DNA of 64,000 nt from Erysipelothrix anatis. GTDB taxonomy: Bacteria > Bacillota_I > Bacilli_A > Erysipelotrichales > Erysipelotrichaceae. Location: positions 1 to 64,000 of the forward strand of contig NZ_WTSX01000005.1 in the NCBI RefSeq assembly GCF_009828745.1, read 5' to 3'. The position numbers were made by a program, and so were the translations under genes. This document shows positions 47,017 to 57,278 of this stretch, one piece after another. Position 1 is the first letter of the stretch. Every line of letters starts with the position of its first letter. The notes beneath the pieces are model-generated. The model was not told the origin of the DNA, did not search any database, and saw only the letters and a list, made by a program, of their open reading frames with translations.

Positions 47017-49644
47017 TTATAATTTGCGATTTTGCTGTTTACGACGGATCAAGCTTGCATGTAAAATTAACACACTTAATCCACCTACCAATAACATCAT
47101 ACCACCATTTCGTTGTGATACTCCCGTTTGTGGTAAGGTTACCGGTTGTCCTGTTTCCGGTGTTGTTGTTTCCGGTCCGATCGGTTTTACCGGATTAACA
47201 GGTACTGTCGGATCAACTGGATCGATAAACTCAGCAACTTTGGCCCACTTAGCGAATAATGTAATATTTTCGGTCACAGCATGCGATGAAAACTCCCAGC
47301 GATTATTGAGTGTCGCATCTTGATACCAACCACCGAACACAAATCCTTTTCGGATTGGTGCGACAGGTTCTTCGACAAAAGCACCCTTTTCGATATCAAT
47401 GTATGATGCTACTGCTGTACCACCTTGTGAATCAAAATGAACGGTGAACGTCTCAGTCATCACCTTTTCCCATGACGCATACAATGTTGTATCCGCATTG
47501 ATACGATGTTCCACAAAATTCCATGGGGTAGTCAATTCGGGATTAACAAACCAACCTTTAAACACATATCCTTCTCTGGTTGGATTTAACGGAGAAGCAA
47601 TTAACGATCCCGCTTGAATATCCTTAAGCGACGTTATTTTAGATCCTCCATTGCTTTCAAATGTGACAATGTACGTTCTAATTTTTTCAAATTTCCCATA
47701 AAGTTCATGGTGTGTTTCGGTTTGCGCTTCACCTTCAAAATTCCAAAGTGAATCGGAACCATCAAACCATCCTATGAAGCGGAATCCTGATGCAGTTGGC
47801 ATTAATGGTGTTTGTGTCTTTTCTCCTACAACAGAATGAATATACTGGAACGATTCGAAGTTATCCGCAATATCATTATCATCAAGAAATTCAAAGTATG
47901 TAAATCCACTGTATGGGTAGTAGACATCGTCATTATTTAATGCATTGGAGTATGCACTCATAAATGAGTTTCGACCAGTACTTGGCGTCACATCTTTGAA
48001 GTTCGACGTATAATAGGCACTTAAACCTGATGTCCCTTCTTTGTACTGCCAATATGTTGGTGCTTGAGACACATTGTTTTCGAACTGGACATTTTCCAAC
48101 CTTAGCAGTGAGGGATAGTTTTCGATATCTGCATAATAAATAGCACCGCCATCACCACCCTCATTGTATCCAGAATCTTCGTGATGTCCCAAAACTGTAC
48201 TGTTAGCAATACGACTATTCTTAATAATATACAAATCGTCTGATGTCATGTCATTGTTGTTATTAAAGTTTAATGTACCACCAGTATAGTCTGCAGTGTT
48301 ACCATCAAATTCCACATTATCTATCCGGACTTGGGTCGTTGCTCCATGTTCATTGTCCAAGTAGAATGCACCACCAGTTGTTGCTTCATTATTTGCAAAT
48401 TGACTGTTTGTGATTGCAACATGACTAGAATTTCTGAGTTGCGTTATCGAAATAGCGCCTCCATCACTCAATTCACCTACTGATTCACCTGTCTCTGGAT
48501 TATAGACGATGCGCGACGCTTTGTTATTTGTGAAGCTTGAATTATCAATCGTCAGTGCGCCACCATCTGAATCGATATCTGCATAAATAGCACCACCACC
48601 TCGGTTTGAAGTATTACTTTCAAAATTACTGTTTAATATTTGCACATTCGCGGCGCCCTCTAAATCAAACGAAATGGCACCGCCTTTATATCCGTGATGG
48701 ATATTATTCTCAAAGCGCGAATCGTCAATCGTTAAATTTGAATTTGAAGATCCAGAATAGGCAATCCCTGCGGATCGACCATGACTTAAATTATCCAAAA
48801 ACGAAACACGCTCAAATGTGTAATTCCCATTGTTATTGAAAACTTGCAACGGTTCGCCATCTTGATTCGCTGTTACATTCTTTGAGAATACAACATCGGA
48901 CACCGTGACATCTGTTTTTACCGTGTCAAGAATTACAATTCCTGATCCTTTTCCATCCGTCCATGCTTTAAATGTATTGCCATCAAAAAGTGCATTCTCC
49001 AAACGGAAAGAGCCACCATTTCCAGCTACTTTAATAAAACCGTCATACCAATCCGTCTTCAAAACATTATTACGCACAACAAGTCCCGACAGAACGTGAT
49101 TATCATTTTTAACATTATAGGTTATTCCACCTTTTGTAGCTGAGTTATCTCCCGACAACACAATATTATTAAAATGAATGGAGGAATGATTTGTTCCCAT
49201 TACTTCCACATGTCGATGGTTGGACGTACTTAATAAAGTAACTGCAGCATCCCCACTGGATTTGAAGGAGATATCCGAAAGTGAACCAGTATTGATTTTC
49301 AAGCTCTGGTCTAAAGTGATAACCGCCCCTTCTTGAATTGTGATAGTATCACCATTTTGGGCAATAGCGAGTGCATCAACCAATTGCATATAGGTGGAAA
49401 CGATAGTCTCAGGATCATCAGCTAAAACCACTCCTTCTTGTTGTTCCATTAATGCGGGTTCATTTGTGTTTCCATCTGCAATCAACGCTTCTGATTCATA
49501 GTTTTCAAGAGTTGATGCATCAACAACACCCTCCATTTCACGATCTTTAAGATTTACAGTACCTATTTCTTCTGCATGCATAGGTACTGTAAAACTGTTC
49601 ATAACTAAAAAAACTGCAAGTAAACTTGCTGTATACTTTTTCAT
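47017..49644 (-). CDS. LPXTG-anchored surface protein with beta-helix and InlB-type repeats
   Basis: A large wall-anchored protein of 875 residues. The start is ATG at 49644 (MKKYTAS), after GGGGGGG; a longer frame upstream lacks an SD. Residues 1-25 are the signal peptide. About 110-560 hold repeated motifs such as NRGGGAIYAD and GGAFYLDN, giving a right-handed beta-helix resembling polymorphic-repeat adhesins. About 585-800 contain three Listeria-Bacteroides (InlB B) repeats: VTFESNGG, GYVFKGW, TTLYASW and relatives. A Pro-rich spacer, LPQTG at 837-841, a hydrophobic span and a RRKQQNRKL tail form the sortase signal. It probably acts in adhesion; ligand unknown. It lies just downstream of the phosphate operon. 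Confidence 0.93.
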   Translation of the reverse strand: MKKYTASLLAVFLVMNSFTVPMHAEEIGTVNLKDREMEGVVDASTLENYESEALIADGNTNEPALMEQQEGVVLADDPETIVSTYMQLVDALAIAQNGDTITIQEGAVITLDQSLKINTGSLSDISFKSSGDAAVTLLSTSNHRHVEVMGTNHSSIHFNNIVLSGDNSATKGGITYNVKNDNHVLSGLVVRNNVLKTDWYDGFIKVAGNGGSFRLENALFDGNTFKAWTDGKGSGIVILDTVKTDVTVSDVVFSKNVTANQDGEPLQVFNNNGNYTFERVSFLDNLSHGRSAGIAYSGSSNSNLTIDDSRFENNIHHGYKGGAISFDLEGAANVQILNSNFESNTSNRGGGAIYADIDSDGGALTIDNSSFTNNKASRIVYNPETGESVGELSDGGAISITQLRNSSHVAITNSQFANNEATTGGAFYLDNEHGATTQVRIDNVEFDGNTADYTGGTLNFNNNNDMTSDDLYIIKNSRIANSTVLGHHEDSGYNEGGDGGAIYYADIENYPSLLRLENVQFENNVSQAPTYWQYKEGTSGLSAYYTSNFKDVTPSTGRNSFMSAYSNALNNDDVYYPYSGFTYFEFLDDNDIADNFESFQYIHSVVGEKTQTPLMPTASGFRFIGWFDGSDSLWNFEGEAQTETHHELYGKFEKIRTYIVTFESNGGSKITSLKDIQAGSLIASPLNPTREGYVFKGWFVNPELTTPWNFVEHRINADTTLYASWEKVMTETFTVHFDSQGGTAVASYIDIEKGAFVEEPVAPIRKGFVFGGWYQDATLNNRWEFSSHAVTENITLFAKWAKVAEFIDPVDPTVPVNPVKPIGPETTTPETGQPVTLPQTGVSQRNGGMMLLVGGLSVLILHASLIRRKQQNRKL

Positions 49645-49783
49645 AATTACCCCCCCTAGATAATAAGAATATGTTAACGCTTCTATATGAAACACACAAA
49701 TCGTAAATTAATAGACTTGTTCAAAATATAATTATCTCTTAATATTCGTGAATTTATAATTGAGTCTTTCTCGGCCCACCTAG

Positions 49784-49810
49784 TAAAAAAAACTACCGAA
49801 TGGTAGTTTT
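49784..49810 (-). terminator. Intrinsic terminator after phoU
   Basis: AAAACTACC, 4-base loop, GGTAGTTTT, T-rich on the minus strand. It ends the pst-phoU operon; the LPXTG gene has its own transcript. Confidence 0.85.
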
Positions 49811-50442
49811 TATCCAAAATCAACGTGTTGACCTTTGGCGATATAGATTATCTGCTCACAGATATTCTTAGCATGGTCACCGGCACGTTCAATATTCCTT
49901 AGAATTCCTGTCGTCTCAATTGGAAAGCGGCCTTCTTTTTCCGCAATATCAACGAATTTCATCATAACTTTTGCGAATGCTTCGTCAAGGTTATCATCTA
50001 ACTCTGCAGCTGCATACGCTTGTTTTACATTAAGTGCTTTCAAGGCTTCAATAACACTATCGAAATTTTCAAGGAAAATATTTCCTAATTCTGTAATTTC
50101 TTCATTAAGAAATTCTTTATCAACATTGCTTTTAATCACAAATCGACCTATATTTTTCGCATAATCACCGATGCGTTCAAGATCAGTCGCAATTTTAATA
50201 CCCCCTACAAGCAAGCGTAGATCGCGTGCGACCGGTTGCATTAACGATAATGTTTGGATTGCTGAGTCATTGATGCTTTCGTCGTAGTAGTTGACTTGAT
50301 CATCACGCTCAATAACATGTAATGCAAGTTCTTTATCATGCGTATTTAGAGCTTCTATGGCTTGTGACATTGATTTACGGACGCGTGATGCCATTTCTAG
50401 CAATTCGCTTTCGAAATCAATCATTTTGTCTTCAATTCTCAT
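49810..50442 (-). CDS. phoU: Phosphate transport regulator PhoU
   Basis: PhoU links the Pst transporter to the histidine kinase so that the Pho response is off when phosphate is plentiful. 210 residues, two repeated three-helix bundles, each with the E(D/x)xxD motif: IATDLERIGDYAKNIG near 86 and ILRNIERAGDHAKNICEQI near 185. Last gene of pstSCAB-phoU. Confidence 0.95.
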   Translation of the reverse strand: MRIEDKMIDFESELLEMASRVRKSMSQAIEALNTHDKELALHVIERDDQVNYYDESINDSAIQTLSLMQPVARDLRLLVGGIKIATDLERIGDYAKNIGRFVIKSNVDKEFLNEEITELGNIFLENFDSVIEALKALNVKQAYAAAELDDNLDEAFAKVMMKFVDIAEKEGRFPIETTGILRNIERAGDHAKNICEQIIYIAKGQHVDFG

Positions 50443-50453
50443 TGTGGACCTCC

Positions 50454-51206
50454 CTATCCGAATCGACCTGTAATATAGTCTTCCGTACGTTTATCCTTAG
50501 GCGTATGGAATAATTTCTTCGTTTCATCATACTCTACAATTTCCCCTAACAAGAAGAATGCTGTCATATCACTAATACGCGCCGCTTGTTGCATTGAGTG
50601 CGTAACGATGACAATGGTAAAGTCTTTCTTTAATTCTACTATAAGTTCTTCGATTTTTGCAGTAGCAATTGGATCTAATGCTGATGTTGGCTCATCCATC
50701 AAAATAACTTCAGGTTTGAGAGCAATCGCACGAGCAATACAAAGACGCTGTTGTTGACCACCAGATAAACGAAGTGCTGATTGATTTAAACGATCTTTAA
50801 CTTCATCGTAAAGTGCAGCTTTTTGCAAGGATTCCTTAACAACTTCGTCAAGAATTTTACGATCTTTAATCCCTTGAACCCGTAAGCCGTATGCGACATT
50901 ATCATAGATACTCATTGGGAACGGGTTTGGATGTTGGAAAACCATCCCAACCTTTGTTCGCAATTCAACAACATCTGTTTTCGGCGCATAAATGTTAACC
51001 CCATCAAATTCGATGATCCCTTCAATGCGTGCATTGGGAATTAGATCGTTCATACGGTTAAATGTACGTAGGAACGTTGATTTCCCACAACCTGATGGTC
51101 CAATAAATGCGGTTACCTTTTGTTTTTTAATATCAATACTTAGACTCTTGAGGGCTTGATTATCGCCATAAAACAAATCAAGGTCTGTTACGTGAAAACT
51201 ATTCAT
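50454..51206 (-). CDS. pstB: Phosphate ABC transporter ATP-binding protein
   Basis: The ATPase subunit of the high-affinity phosphate importer. Walker [10 protein letters not shown] near residue 36, signature [14 protein letters not shown] near 147, Walker [15 protein letters not shown]. Length 250 typical. It lies 11 bases before phoU and 1 base after pstA. Confidence 0.97.
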
Positions 51207-51207
51207 C

Positions 51208-52431
51208 TTAAGCTCCTAACTTCTTATTGAGTCGACGACTCATAAGTTTTACTGATAAATTTAAAACGAGTACTAAAGCAAGAATAATAATAGAGATGGC
51301 ACTTGCTAATTCAAAATTCGGTTGTTCGTGACTCATTACGGACCAAATGTGGACTGCTAGGGTCGTAGCACCTTCACCCACACGTGGTGCATCATTAATA
51401 AATGTACCCATAGTATAAATAAGTGCGGCGGATTCTCCAATAATACGACTTACAGCAAGTAAAATTGCCGAGAGAATTCCAGGCAGTGCCGATGGCAAAA
51501 TAACTCTAAAGATCGTTTGCGTTTGGCTTGCGCCTAGGGATAGTGAAGCAGAGCGATAATCTCGCGGTACAACTATGAGCGATTCTTGAACCGATCGAAT
51601 AATGACCGGCAAAAGCATTACAGACATCGTCATACCACCAAGTAGGATACTTAAACCACTAATATTAAAAAATGCAGTAATCGGGTACAAGACAACAATT
51701 CCCATTAACCCAAAAATGATACTTGGAACACCTGCTAGCATTTCAATACAACGTTCAATAAAACTGTTGAATTTGGAAGGCTGGGCAATTTCCGTCAAAT
51801 AGATTGCTGCAAAAATTCCAATTGGAAGTGCAAAAAGCAATGAAATACCAATGAGCATTAAGGTTGCGATGAGTGATCCCCAAATTCCGCCACCAGGTGT
51901 TTTATAGTATAGCGATGTAAGCGTCTCAGTAGAATCAAGTTTCATAACCATCGATTCAGCTTTATCCGCAAAGGTTGTTCCCATTAGAATTGTGGTTCCT
52001 GTTGCGTTAACACCTTCAATTTTTTCGATTTGATCACCAATGGATACTGTCAGACTCTCACCATAACTCGGACCTTTGGTTGCGTTGACCGATTGATTAA
52101 ACACAGAATTATCATCGATGTATGATACGCGAATCAGGCGTTGTTTTTCATGATTGATCTCATTCGTAAAACCAATACCATATTTCGTACTATAAACGAC
52201 ATCGTCACCCAAATGATCGGGTTTTATAAATGTTTGTTGTGTTTGGTCTGTCCATTCTACAAGGTAGTTTTGTGACCAATAATCATTCCGTAACATTTCC
52301 ATGCTCAGCGTATCTTTACCAGTTGCAATAACAAAGGCAAAGATTGCAATAAGAATTAAGAATGTTGCAGATGATGCAAGATAAGTAAAGAAATTAGCAA
52401 TACCATCTTTAATTTTACGCGATTGTGTCAT
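51208..52431 (-). CDS. pstA: Phosphate ABC transporter permease PstA with enlarged extracytoplasmic loop
   Basis: The second permease of the importer, 407 residues where about 290-300 is usual. After TM1 (residues about 18-37) an extra hydrophilic segment of about 100 residues (approx. 40-175) is inserted, before the ordinary [12 protein letters not shown] and the membrane core with [23 protein letters not shown], the EAA coupling helix. The inserted segment would face outward, next to the bound PstS. Overlaps pstC by 4 bases. Confidence 0.93.
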
Positions 52432-53360
52432 TGTCCTTCTGCCCCCACTTTCTTCTTAACGATATGAATGATGAGGTTTGACAGAAGAATCGTAACCATT
52501 AGCACAATTCCGACTGAAAAGCGAATATCATAATCAACACCCGTCGTTTCTTTTAAACCTGAGAGCATAGTTGATGTTAGTGTACGTGTAATATCAAATG
52601 GATTCCATGTTGGTCCCATGGCTTTATTACCCGCAACCATGGATACCGCTGTCGCCTCTCCAAATGCGCGCGCTAGTCCTAAAATGAGACCTGCAAAAAT
52701 ACCGGATTTAGCGCTTGTAAGAACTACTTTAAAGTTTGTTTGTGTTTTAGAAGCGCCAAGTGCAAGCGAACCTAATTCAAGTTCCGGTTTAACAGCTTTA
52801 ATTGCAACTATTGAAAGAGATGTCATTGTTGGGATAACCATAATCGCTAGCAAAATAACAACAGCAAGCATTGAGCGACCACCAAATGTTGAATATCCGA
52901 ACACTTGCGCGACATTGTCAACCCAAGAAACGATAACCCCGGACGCGAAAACCCCGTAAACTACCGACGGAATTGCGGCCAATAGCTCAATAACAGTTGT
53001 TAGAATCGATCCCAATGCTTTGGGAGCAATTTTTACAATAAAGAGCGCTGTTAAGACTGATACTGGGAATGCTATCAGCATCGCAAAGAATGCTGTTATG
53101 AGCGTATTGATAACGATAAACAAGACACCATAGATTTGTTTATCATTACGCCATGTAAAGCCTGATATAAATGACCAAAAATTAACCTGTGAATCGCCGT
53201 AAGTTGGCAAGAACACAGAAATCCCTTTTTGGAAAATAAAGATGAAAATAAAAACAATCATCGATGCAGCTAAAATTCCTGCAATTTTAAATAATGAACG
53301 GAATATCAAATCGATTATCTTTTTTCGTTTTTGATATGATTCGGACCACTGAGTATTCAT
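52428..53360 (-). CDS. pstC: Phosphate ABC transporter permease PstC
   Basis: First permease of the phosphate importer, 310 residues, about six spans. The EAA-type cytoplasmic loop LALGASKTQTNFKVVLTSAKSGIFAG and the membrane segments PAAIPSVVYGVFA-like (LLAAIPSVVYGVFASG) are seen. It pairs with pstA and is separated from pstS by a terminator hairpin. Confidence 0.95.
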   Translation of the reverse strand: MNTQWSESYQKRKKIIDLIFRSLFKIAGILAASMIVFIFIFIFQKGISVFLPTYGDSQVNFWSFISGFTWRNDKQIYGVLFIVINTLITAFFAMLIAFPVSVLTALFIVKIAPKALGSILTTVIELLAAIPSVVYGVFASGVIVSWVDNVAQVFGYSTFGGRSMLAVVILLAIMVIPTMTSLSIVAIKAVKPELELGSLALGASKTQTNFKVVLTSAKSGIFAGLILGLARAFGEATAVSMVAGNKAMGPTWNPFDITRTLTSTMLSGLKETTGVDYDIRFSVGIVLMVTILLSNLIIHIVKKKVGAEGQ

Positions 53361-53399: not shown

Positions 53400-53424
53400 A
53401 AAAAGCTTAGCGATTGCTAAGCTT
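53400..53424 (-). terminator. Intergenic terminator between pstS and pstC
   Basis: AAGCTTAGC, 4-base loop, GCTAAGCTT, T run on the minus strand, overlapping the pstS stop. Partial termination here would give the higher level of binding protein than of membrane parts usual for Pst operons. Confidence 0.82.
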
Positions 53425-54331
53425 ACTTAATGTCTGCCCATGTTTTAGCGTTTCCACTAAAAATTTCCACGAGCTGAGCTGCTGTAAGATCTTTGATTGC
53501 ATCGTTCTTTACTGGAACAACAACAACGACTGCATCTTTTGCATATTCTCCAGACATTAAGCCTGATGCTACTGTTTCTTCGGATTTAAATGCACGGGAT
53601 GCGAAACCAATATCGATTGCGTTTGCACCGTCTTTTTCACCGCCGAGTGTACGTTTGAAGCCATCTCCTGAACCTGTATGGTTTGGCTCAAATTTGAAAT
53701 TACCTGCCATCGGAATGAATGATTGAACTGCAGCAGTGATTGTTTTATCAACTGATGTTGATCCCCCTGTTTTAAGAGTGATGCCACTGTTATCTTGATC
53801 AACAATTGGATGGTTTGCTTTGAGTTCAGACCAAGGTTTACCAGCTCCGACATCAACAATTCCACCAGCTGCAAGCACGACTTGTCGTCCTTCTGTTGAA
53901 TTTACAAGGTAGTCAAGGAATGCAGCAACAAGTTGCTCTTTATCTTGTGAACCAAAATCACCAGCAGCACGTGTTACAAAACTAAATGGACGTGCTAACT
54001 TATAAGTTCCGTTGTTAACCGTTTCAACAGTTGGATTAACGCCTTCATATGAAACCGGTGTTAATTCATTGGCTTCAAAGTCAGTTGTTAATGAAACATA
54101 ACCAATTCCGGCTGGACTAGAACTTACTTGTTTCGCCATATCTCCATTTGAAGTTGTTTCAGCACTATTGCTTGTAAGTGATTCAAGTCCAATAATACTT
54201 TCAAAGGCTTCTCGAGTTCCTGATGATCCATCACGAGTATAAACTTTTATTGATTCTGATGATTTTGAGCCTTGTGCTCCACATCCTACTAATACTAATA
54301 AAGCTAATGCACTAACTAATAGCTTTTTCAT
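53423..54331 (-). CDS. pstS: Circularly permuted phosphate-binding lipoprotein PstS
   Basis: Solute-binding protein of the phosphate importer. The start is ATG at 54331 after GGAGG; lipobox LVGC17. The order of its halves is swapped. Residues about 27-160 match the C-terminal half of ordinary PstS (IKVYTRDGSSGTREAF; GIGYVSL; FLDYLVNSTEGRQVVL). Residues about 183-302 match the N-terminal half (TGGSTSVDKTI; TGSGDGFKRTL; AIDIGFASRAF; AVVVVVPVKNDAI; LVEIFSGNAKTWADIK). The chain ends at WADIK, which in the usual protein precedes the DGSSGT-type segment, so the new termini lie in that loop, and a linker near 160-183 joins the old ends. The phosphate contacts GSSGTR and GSGDG are kept, so binding is likely intact. 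Confidence 0.92.
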   Translation of the reverse strand: MKKLLVSALALLVLVGCGAQGSKSSESIKVYTRDGSSGTREAFESIIGLESLTSNSAETTSNGDMAKQVSSSPAGIGYVSLTTDFEANELTPVSYEGVNPTVETVNNGTYKLARPFSFVTRAAGDFGSQDKEQLVAAFLDYLVNSTEGRQVVLAAGGIVDVGAGKPWSELKANHPIVDQDNSGITLKTGGSTSVDKTITAAVQSFIPMAGNFKFEPNHTGSGDGFKRTLGGEKDGANAIDIGFASRAFKSEETVASGLMSGEYAKDAVVVVVPVKNDAIKDLTAAQLVEIFSGNAKTWADIK

Positions 54332-54447: not shown

Positions 54448-54470
54448 AAAAGGAACTCAGATGAGTTCCT
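54448..54470 (-). terminator. Intrinsic terminator after phoR
   Basis: AGGAACTCA, 2-base loop, TGAGTTCCT, then TTTTCTTA on the minus strand. Confidence 0.82.
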
Positions 54471-55677
54471 AGATATTGATTGTGAAGGTTGTTCCTTTTC
54501 CTTTTTGACTTGTGACACTCAGTTGGCCACGGTGTGCTTCAATTATTGATTTGGATATCGCTAGCCCCAAGCCACTTCCGCCGGTATCTCGGGTACGAGA
54601 ATCTTCACCACGGTAGAAGCGTTCAAAGATATGCGGCAGCAAATTCTCGCTGATACCGTCACCATCATCTGAGAAATCAATCTTTACACGACGGCCTTCG
54701 GCAGTACAGACAATACGAATGCATCCGCCATGAGCATAGTTAATGGCATTATTGAAGAGGTTCAAGAATACCTGGCTCATTCGGAACTGATCAGCGAATA
54801 TCTCTAAATCAGATGGACAATTGAGCTGTACTTCTATATTGTGTTGATGCAACGCTTGGCGACGATCATAAATCAAACCTTCAAAAAACTGTTTCAAATT
54901 GAAATGTGTTTTCTCAAGATATACTTGATTGGCACGCAGACGGGATTGTAACAACAAGTCTTCAACGATACGGTCAAGACGCTCTACTTCTTTTTTTGTT
55001 TGGTCCAAAAACTCAGTTCGTGTTTGATCATCATCAAAGTCAGGTCGTGTCATAATCTCGACCATCCCCTTAATCGACGTAATGGGAGTGCGAAGTTCAT
55101 GCGAAGCATCTGCAATAAATCGTTTTTGCATCTTCTCACCTTCAACGACACGGGTAACATCTTGAAATATTAGCATACACCCATGATAACGTCGCGTTTC
55201 AGTCAAAAGTGGAATTGACAAGACTTGATAATCGATGTCCTTATAGCTGAATTGACGCACAAATTGTTGTTCATTGAGAAAGGCATCAAGAAGCGTTTGA
55301 CGGATTGGCGAATCAATATTCACATCATAAACATTTTGTGCTTGTGATACGAGCATTTGATCGAAGTATTGATTGCTAACCTCAAAATCACCACGTTGGT
55401 TGATATAGACCAATGGCGATGGGATTGCATTAATCAGCTTAACAAGCTTATCTGTAGCATCATCTGCACGATAATGTGCTTCTTTTTTTTCTTTTTCTGC
55501 GTGCTTACGAATACTATGGACAGCATCACTTTGCTTAAGGCTGTTCACAGCAAGCATACATATTGCCGCAATAATGAGGACAATTATCGAAATCAAGTTC
55601 TGATAATAAAGGGTTATCCCTGCAATAAACAGGAAAATAATAACATTAATTCGATTCACGTTTCGCAACGTATCCAA
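54469..55677 (-). CDS. phoR: Phosphate-responsive sensor histidine kinase PhoR
   Basis: A membrane-bound histidine kinase of 402 residues. Two N-terminal hydrophobic segments (about 12-45) anchor it, a PAS domain follows (NAIPSPLVYINQRGDFE..), then HisKA with HELRTPITS near residue 193 and the ATPase boxes NLFNNAINYA, DDGDGIS, FERFYRGED and GGSGLGLAIS. There is only a short outside loop, as in many PhoR proteins that sense phosphate through PstSCAB and PhoU. It overlaps phoP by 32 bases. Confidence 0.93.
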   Translation of the reverse strand: MDTLRNVNRINVIIFLFIAGITLYYQNLISIIVLIIAAICMLAVNSLKQSDAVHSIRKHAEKEKKEAHYRADDATDKLVKLINAIPSPLVYINQRGDFEVSNQYFDQMLVSQAQNVYDVNIDSPIRQTLLDAFLNEQQFVRQFSYKDIDYQVLSIPLLTETRRYHGCMLIFQDVTRVVEGEKMQKRFIADASHELRTPITSIKGMVEIMTRPDFDDDQTRTEFLDQTKKEVERLDRIVEDLLLQSRLRANQVYLEKTHFNLKQFFEGLIYDRRQALHQHNIEVQLNCPSDLEIFADQFRMSQVFLNLFNNAINYAHGGCIRIVCTAEGRRVKIDFSDDGDGISENLLPHIFERFYRGEDSRTRDTGGSGLGLAISKSIIEAHRGQLSVTSQKGKGTTFTINI

Positions 55678-56326
55678 CCCCTCTCAATGAATTTATTTTA
55701 ACATCCGATGCTTCTAGTTTTGATCGCAACTTAAACACGTGGACATCAACAATACGGGTGTCACCATCATAATCATAATTCCATATTTCTGATAGAATTT
55801 GATCTCGCGATAGGACAATATTCTCATTTTGCAAGAGATAGATTAATAAATCAAACTCTTTCTTCGTAAGTTCGATAATATCTTCGTTGACTTTTACAGT
55901 ATGTTGATCTAACAGAACCGTTATATTTCCAACTTCAATGGTATGGCTCTTTGACGACGTTGTTGCTCTACGCAGATGTGCTTTGATTCGAGCAGTTAGT
56001 TCGCGTGGCGAAAATGGCTTTGTCAGATAATCATCCACACCAGCCTCAAATGCATCTAATATATCACTCTCTTCATCTTTCGCTGTTAACATGATGAGAA
56101 TGGAATCCATCCCAAGTTTACGAAACTCTGTAACTAATTCAACACCAGAGTGATATGGAAGCATCCAATCCACTATAATGACGTCATAGTTGGTTTCCTT
56201 TGCCATCTGTAAGCCTTCACGACCATCTCGCGCAGATTCTACTTCAAAATCCATTTGACGTAAATCATACCGTAATAGTCGGCGAATGCCCTCCTCATCT
56301 TCGATTATTAGAATTTTCCGATTCAT
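55646..56326 (-). CDS. phoP: Response regulator PhoP
   Basis: An OmpR/PhoB-type regulator of 226 residues. The receiver has the acid pocket EDEEG, Asp52-like site in VDWMLP, and Lys in TKPFSPRELTARI; the winged-helix domain ends GVGYVAKRESN. The start is ATG at 56326 after AAGGAG; an earlier ATG in the SD is rejected. It overlaps phoH by 32 bases and phoR by a similar length. Confidence 0.93.
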   Translation of the reverse strand: MNRKILIIEDEEGIRRLLRYDLRQMDFEVESARDGREGLQMAKETNYDVIIVDWMLPYHSGVELVTEFRKLGMDSILIMLTAKDEESDILDAFEAGVDDYLTKPFSPRELTARIKAHLRRATTSSKSHTIEVGNITVLLDQHTVKVNEDIIELTKKEFDLLIYLLQNENIVLSRDQILSEIWNYDYDGDTRIVDVHVFKLRSKLEASDVKINSLRGVGYVAKRESN

Positions 56327-57278
56327 TGCGATCTCCTTCCGCAAACTTCTTAAGTATTTTTATGACAAGTGGATGTCGCACAACATCCGTATGCGATAAA
56401 TTAACAAATGCTATTTCTGGGATATCACTCAAGTACGCTTTCGCAACTTTTAATCCCGACTGAGCGTTACGCGGCAAATCGATTTGATCAATATCACCAG
56501 TAATGATCATTTTCGAATTACGACCAAGTCGTGACAAGAACATCATCATCTGAGCTTTGGTAGTATTTTGGGCTTCATCAAGAATGACCACCGCATCATC
56601 CAATGTCCGACCACGCATATACGCGAGCGGCGCAATTTCGATGATACCTTTATCTATGTAACGTTGTGTTCGCTCAGCTGAAAACATATCATCCAAAGCA
56701 TCATACAATGGACGAAGGTAAGGATCTACTTTCTCTTTTAAGTCACCTGGAAGGAATCCAAGATTCTCTCCAGCTTCTACGGCCGGACGCGTTAGAATAA
56801 TTTTTTGAATTTCATTCTTTTTAAGAAGCTCCGCTGCATATGCAACTGCCAAGTATGTTTTACCAGTTCCAGCAGGACCAATTGCGAACGTCATATCCCT
56901 TTTCTTCATGCCATCTATCAATTGTTTTTGACCAAGTGTTTTCGCACGAATGGGTTTACCAGCAAACGTACGAGTCAAGACATCGTCCATAACCTCAATA
57001 AAACGATCAGATTGACGATTATCAACAAGTACAAACAAATAGTCCAAGTCTTGAGCATCAATACGCTTATAGTGTTTAATGACCTCAGAAGCAAGTTCAA
57101 AAAAACGAACTGCTTGCTCCACATCATCTTCAACCCCTGAAATTTCTAAGGCATTATTTCGTTCGTTAATCCGTACTTTATAATGGTTTTCAACCGCTTG
57201 TACCGTTTTACTTTCAACGCCTACCAAATCCTGTAGGCTAATACTACTATCCGATAAATCAAAATTTCGAGTTGTCAA
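56295..57278 (-). CDS. phoH: PhoH-like ATPase
   Basis: A P-loop ATPase of 327 residues with N-terminal KH-like region. GPAGTGKTYLAVA near residue 138 is Walker A; DEAQNTTKAQMMMFLSR and SKMIITGDIDQID are the helicase-like motifs. It is thought to act in RNA metabolism, together with ybeY, which it normally precedes. The start is TTG behind AAGGAGG. Its 3' end overlaps phoP, so the two-component system may be co-transcribed. Confidence 0.95.
   Translation of the reverse strand: MTTRNFDLSDSSISLQDLVGVESKTVQAVENHYKVRINERNNALEISGVEDDVEQAVRFFELASEVIKHYKRIDAQDLDYLFVLVDNRQSDRFIEVMDDVLTRTFAGKPIRAKTLGQKQLIDGMKKRDMTFAIGPAGTGKTYLAVAYAAELLKKNEIQKIILTRPAVEAGENLGFLPGDLKEKVDPYLRPLYDALDDMFSAERTQRYIDKGIIEIAPLAYMRGRTLDDAVVILDEAQNTTKAQMMMFLSRLGRNSKMIITGDIDQIDLPRNAQSGLKVAKAYLSDIPEIAFVNLSHTDVVRHPLVIKILKKFAEGDRNESENSNNRR

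Follow-up and report, generated by a model that had tools for sequence, protein, structure and literature searches.

Does the phosphate-binding gene of Erysipelothrix anatis encode its two halves in the reverse of the usual order and, if so, how did such a protein arise and how might it work? An earlier note, made from the sequence alone, had read one gene of this locus as a pstS whose second-half segments come first and whose first-half segments come last, with the chain ending exactly at WADIK. The window analyzed here is a stretch of 64,000 nt of E. anatis contig NZ_WTSX01000005.1, and all coordinates are positions within it (Table 1). The note gave no strand. Because the plus strand of 53423-54331 has many stops and the minus strand translates properly, the gene was assigned to the minus strand. 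AGGAGG precedes its ATG at 54331, and L14 and C17 of its lipoprotein signal are invariant across nine relatives. It is the single pstS copy in the genome and lies directly before pstC-pstA-pstB-phoU. Next to phoU (47017-49695, minus), an 892-codon gene encodes a repeat-containing surface protein whose C terminus has an LPQTG-like anchor.

Table 1. Features of the pst locus of E. anatis (positions within the window).
Feature	Position	Strand	Basis
pstS, circularly permuted, 302-aa lipoprotein (stop codon included)	53423..54331	minus	translation 54331 to 53423, profile matches
Lipoprotein signal, residues 1-17 (MKKLLVSALALLVLVGC)	54281..54331	minus	read from sequence
PstS second half, placed first, residues 25-160, with RDGSSGTR	53852..54259	minus	TIGR02136 profile 160-291
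Linker from old C terminus to old N terminus, residues 161-181, KPWxELKxNHPIVDQDNS	53789..53851	minus	conserved in type A
PstS first half, placed last, residues 182-302, with GGSTSV/TGSGDG/DIGFASR, ending WADIK	53426..53788	minus	TIGR02136 profile 39-164; PF12849 profile 11-125
pstC, permease	52428..53360	minus	TIGR02138 above cut-off
pstA, permease with insertion, 407 aa	51208..52431	minus	TIGR00974 above cut-off, matches residues 175-402 only
PstA insertion, about residues 40-172, first membrane helix to permease core	51916..52314	minus	without convincing family
pstB, ATPase	50454..51206	minus	TIGR00972 above cut-off
phoU	49810..50442	minus	TIGR02135 above cut-off
Sensor histidine kinase, PnpS/PhoR type, upstream of pstS	54469..55677	minus	best models NF046044 and TIGR02966, both below cut-offs
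Response regulator, PhoB type	55646..56344	minus	best model TIGR02154, below cut-off

When TIGR02136 was run against the whole genome, two matches were obtained: profile positions 160-291 at 54262-53864, in the 5′ part of the gene, and profile positions 39-164 at 53788-53408, in the 3′ part. The halves aligned separately, as the note had proposed, thus fall second half first and first half last, and all the segments it named are present as described. The two stretches had E-values of 2.6e-21 and 3.7e-16, and PF12849 also gave two significant stretches. The full-length TIGR02136 score was 128.5 bits, under the cut-off of 206.6, as a broken alignment would lead one to expect; the cut-off presumes the canonical order. 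With phmmer, residues 27-152 matched chain positions 119-237 of Clostridium perfringens PBP-1 (4q8r; i-E 5e-11) and residues 186-301 matched positions 6-113 (i-E 1.6e-9). Against Streptococcus pneumoniae PstS2 (4h1x), a single collinear stretch was seen (19-302 to 2-265), with the same cut point. A relative of the kind called type B below showed this even more strongly in a PDB search, with one stretch against 4h1x (E 2e-54) and, among the matches listed, two swapped stretches against normal-order PstS chains. The ending at WADIK also holds among relatives: in 59 permuted ones, the match to the N-terminal half stops 0-5 residues short of the C terminus. Judged by these sequence comparisons, chance is excluded as the source of the two swapped profile matches, and the swapped order of the halves in E. 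anatis PstS is confirmed.

The same order was found in E. aquatica VA92-K48 (PstS 99% identical to that of E. anatis), E. inopinata, E. urinaevulpis, Erysipelothrix sp. HDW6A, and a rabbit-gut bin. All 12 other Erysipelothrix genomes searched had a permuted gene, most at 59-99% identity; one of these genes is cut by a contig end, and one genome (G008) carries the type-B permuted form at 35%. An artefact of gene prediction or of assembly acting on a normal pstS, the latter a possibility that the note itself had raised against its reading, is contradicted by the recurrence of the order across several Erysipelothrix species and many further genera, in independent genomes both complete and draft, as well as by the solved chain 4h1x, which carries it too. 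We rejected it and regard its probability as negligible.

A survey of relatives for both orders, also proposed in the note, did find both. In the family, 52 of 96 genomes searched, E. anatis included, had a full-length permuted match, or about half; approximately 18 had a clear normal-order PstS, and a few had both orders. The survey also turned up weakly matching ORFs of 400-500 aa. Mycoplasma PstS, in which matches break at TGA codons, stands outside the order count. In a wider search, many families of the class had permuted genes; every match in one sister family (f2) was in the normal order. Beyond these, plasmid records of Treponema saccharophilum and Monoglobus pectinilyticus have a permuted gene, annotated merely as "substrate-binding domain-containing protein", directly before pstC-pstA-pstB-phoU, and a permuted PstS operon is also present in a Clostridiaceae bin. 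No relatives of the permuted PstS were found in the viral contigs scanned. Two genomes carry two permuted pstS genes each: adjacent before one pstC-pstA in L151 (G334), and about 99 kb apart with equal scores in G400 (C1:1631919-1632860 and 1730849-1731790).

The predicted fold agrees with the permutation. AlphaFold2 gave a pLDDT of 39 with six sequences and a mean pLDDT of 78 when three rows were added (nine sequences). By far the best fold match of the model, in sequential order and over the whole length, was the permuted 4h1x (Foldseek E 2e-20; VIA-align Z 26.7, 248 residues); OpuAC of Bacillus subtilis was second in sequential order (Z 11.3). Normal PstS structures matched over one half, 130-139 residues. 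Together with the profile matches and the conserved motifs of both halves, this superposition backs the note's description of a circularly permuted, two-lobed type II binding protein.

Contact motifs are conserved in each of the two halves, in agreement with the note's statement that both phosphate-contact loops are kept. In the alignment, R33, S37, G38, R40, G190, S191, S193, S221, S245, and D266 are identical in 79 of 79 permuted rows, and the same ten positions are kept in nearly all 28 normal-order rows. The aligned counterpart of R33 in 4Q8R is Arg125, a phosphate ligand according to a 2025 paper (PMC12421899). In the SAR11 PstS, the second lobe comprises residues 112-278 and includes the ligands Gly174 and Thr175 (PMC12421899). 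By homology with CpPstS (PMC12421899), rather than by measurement on the model, this span of lobe 2 would place the new chain ends of the permuted PstS inside lobe 2. The conserved ligand residues make phosphate binding by the permuted PstS a reasonable expectation.

A permuted binding protein that feeds some other oxyanion or phosphorus compound to the Pst permease could look similar, since the ligand specificity of the permuted PstS is not readable with certainty, and the column of the H-D-D triplet at D240 is variable in the permuted rows (D in 53, H in 14, M in 4). The genome has no other PstS, however, and this one stands in a full pst operon beside PhoR/PhoB-type genes and has kept the contact residues in both halves, so that we consider another ligand very improbable. 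The protein is very probably a circularly permuted PstS that serves a Pst importer as its phosphate-binding lipoprotein.

How many times did the permutation occur? In a tree built from both PstS halves rearranged into canonical order, the label "permuted" takes two changes, corresponding to two types. Type A comprises Erysipelothrix together with numerous further families of the class. Type B comprises 4h1x (pneumococcal-like), Treponema, Monoglobus, and some family members. An independent origin of the two types by cutting at the same loop would agree with this two-change tree, in which normal-order rows on a starred branch (96/93) separate them, and with their linkers between the halves, about 21 residues in type A and about 10 in type B. 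Yet a tree with all permuted rows constrained together was not rejected (AU p 0.27; 0.24 without long branches), and the cut point is identical in both types, as a single permutation would have it. We see two origins and one as evenly balanced.

The route to the permuted form can be approached through rarer gene forms. Four genomes of two families have fused PstS genes in the order C-N-C-N, of 593-678 codons from stop to stop (L009 4067-5935; L090, L091, and L092), one of them in a 1.9-Mb contig. Their units share 79-93% amino-acid identity with each other, and two of the four genes have long stretches of 100% nucleotide identity with diverged ends on either side, a pattern that conversion or a recent duplication would leave. 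In a further fused gene (L221, G455), the frame is broken in the first unit (123 + 497 codons), by decay or sequencing error. Another genome (G289; L115 1543-2490, minus), which shares its genus with one of the four fused-gene genomes and its family with G400, has an intact 315-codon lipoprotein gene before pstC with the order second-half tail, first half, second-half head (c-N-c). It is cut after RPFMFVTR, so that its N-to-C junction is again canonical. Trimming a C-N-C-N gene elsewhere would yield c-N-c, which favours duplication plus trimming. The duplication and subsequent loss of outer halves suggested in the note thus gained indirect support from the fused and c-N-c genes, but the N-C-N-C intermediate that it implies was not seen among the relatives examined. 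Duplication plus trimming is the likeliest route to the permuted PstS.

A second peculiarity of the operon is the insertion in PstA. For 86 operons, we determined how many residues separate the pstC stop from the beginning of the PstA core. The count was 153-209 in all 47 type-A operons, with the fused forms among them, 44-91 in 16 type-B operons, and 35-67 in 23 normal-order operons. In other words, the first membrane helix was followed by an insertion of about 110-130 residues in 47/47 type-A, 0/16 type-B, and 0/23 normal-order operons. One genome, G284, holds both a type-A operon with a long PstA and a normal operon with a short one. The insertion has a recurring pattern, YSxxWGIAFxD...YIxxxSPF. 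Profile searches found no convincing family for it, and nothing convincing was found in the PDB. A PDZ identity was not supported, as only one of 16 members matched PF13180, with an E-value of 0.043.

With the usual permease topology, the insertion would be expected on the outer face of the membrane, where docking takes place. This expected position, and the absence of any exception in 86 operons, including the genome with both operon kinds, speak against the view that permutation and insertion are unrelated, having arisen on the same branch by coincidence and travelled together in a shared operon. On the other hand, the insertion needs one change on the tree, and since the genes of the operon are inherited together, this counts as one event and gives no statistical proof of a functional link. 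Moreover, type-B permuted PstS works with an ordinary PstA, so permutation alone needs no insertion. For unrelated events we would put the chances at about half. The co-occurrence, one evolutionary event though it is, suggests a link between the insertion and PstS docking. For the note's idea that a permuted binding protein may dock differently on its permeases, the extra PstA domain in precisely the type-A lineage is the one relevant piece of evidence.

We picture the importer as follows. The chain is cut between the WxDI segment and the strand leading to RDGSSGTR, a site that homology places in the second lobe, and the linker of about 21 residues joins the old ends; this form probably arose through an in-frame tandem duplication and then loss of the outer parts. 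The permuted protein should still fold as the usual two-lobed flytrap, in which GGSTSV/TGSGDG/FASR on lobe 1 and RDGSSGTR on lobe 2 would hold the phosphate before it passes to PstC-PstA. After the permutation, the lipid anchor at the N terminus would sit on lobe 2 instead of lobe 1. In the least certain step, which we put forward tentatively as somewhat less probable than its negation, the extra domain of type-A PstA might face outwards and contact or guide the re-tethered PstS. It is conceivable, though slightly more doubtful still, that the type-A importer was remodelled as a whole: permutation gave PstS a lipid anchor that emerges from lobe 2, PstA acquired an external domain to receive or position PstS, and some relatives later doubled the binding protein in one chain and re-cut it at a second site.

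Such proteins escape annotation because the full-length model stays below its cut-off, and the records say "substrate-binding domain-containing protein". With normal, permuted, fused double-permuted, and re-cut PstS among its genomes, this clade is a good test case for the origin of circular permutations, and the matching PstA insertion makes the docking of a tethered binding protein directly testable. A crystal structure with the swapped order, 4h1x, has been public since 2012. In a search of the open literature on permuted PstS, 4H1X, and OpuAC with domain dislocation, with subscription journals mostly outside its reach, no description of the PstS permutation was found. The swapped order thus seems to be undescribed in the open literature. 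The PstA insertion accompanying type-A permuted PstS is new here.

The closest known protein is S. pneumoniae PstS2 (SP_2084, PDB 4H1X), which resembles E. anatis PstS in its swapped order and cut point and aligns with it end to end. It differs in belonging to type B, with 25-26% identity and a linker of about 10 rather than 21 residues. Canonical PstS proteins of the TIGR02136 group (C. perfringens PBP-1, 4Q8R and 4GD5; S. pneumoniae PstS1, 4EXL) are homologous in both halves and share the contact motifs and the operon, but have the halves in the opposite order and the lipid anchor at the other end of the fold. Circular permutation is known from other binding proteins. Among type II-like glycine-betaine-binding proteins, OpuAC of B. 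subtilis (2B4L) and ProX (1R9L) are related by it (PMC2395249); OpuAC has another ligand than the permuted PstS and 12% identity to it. MglB-2 of Treponema pallidum (Tp0684), of "Type Ic / Cluster Bc", is a naturally circularly permuted, tethered ABC binding protein of a kind found in spirochaetes and Gram-positive bacteria (PMC4990184). It has a type I fold, a sugar ligand, and a different cut, and its authors propose that the permutation is an adaptation to anchoring or tethering (PMC4990184).
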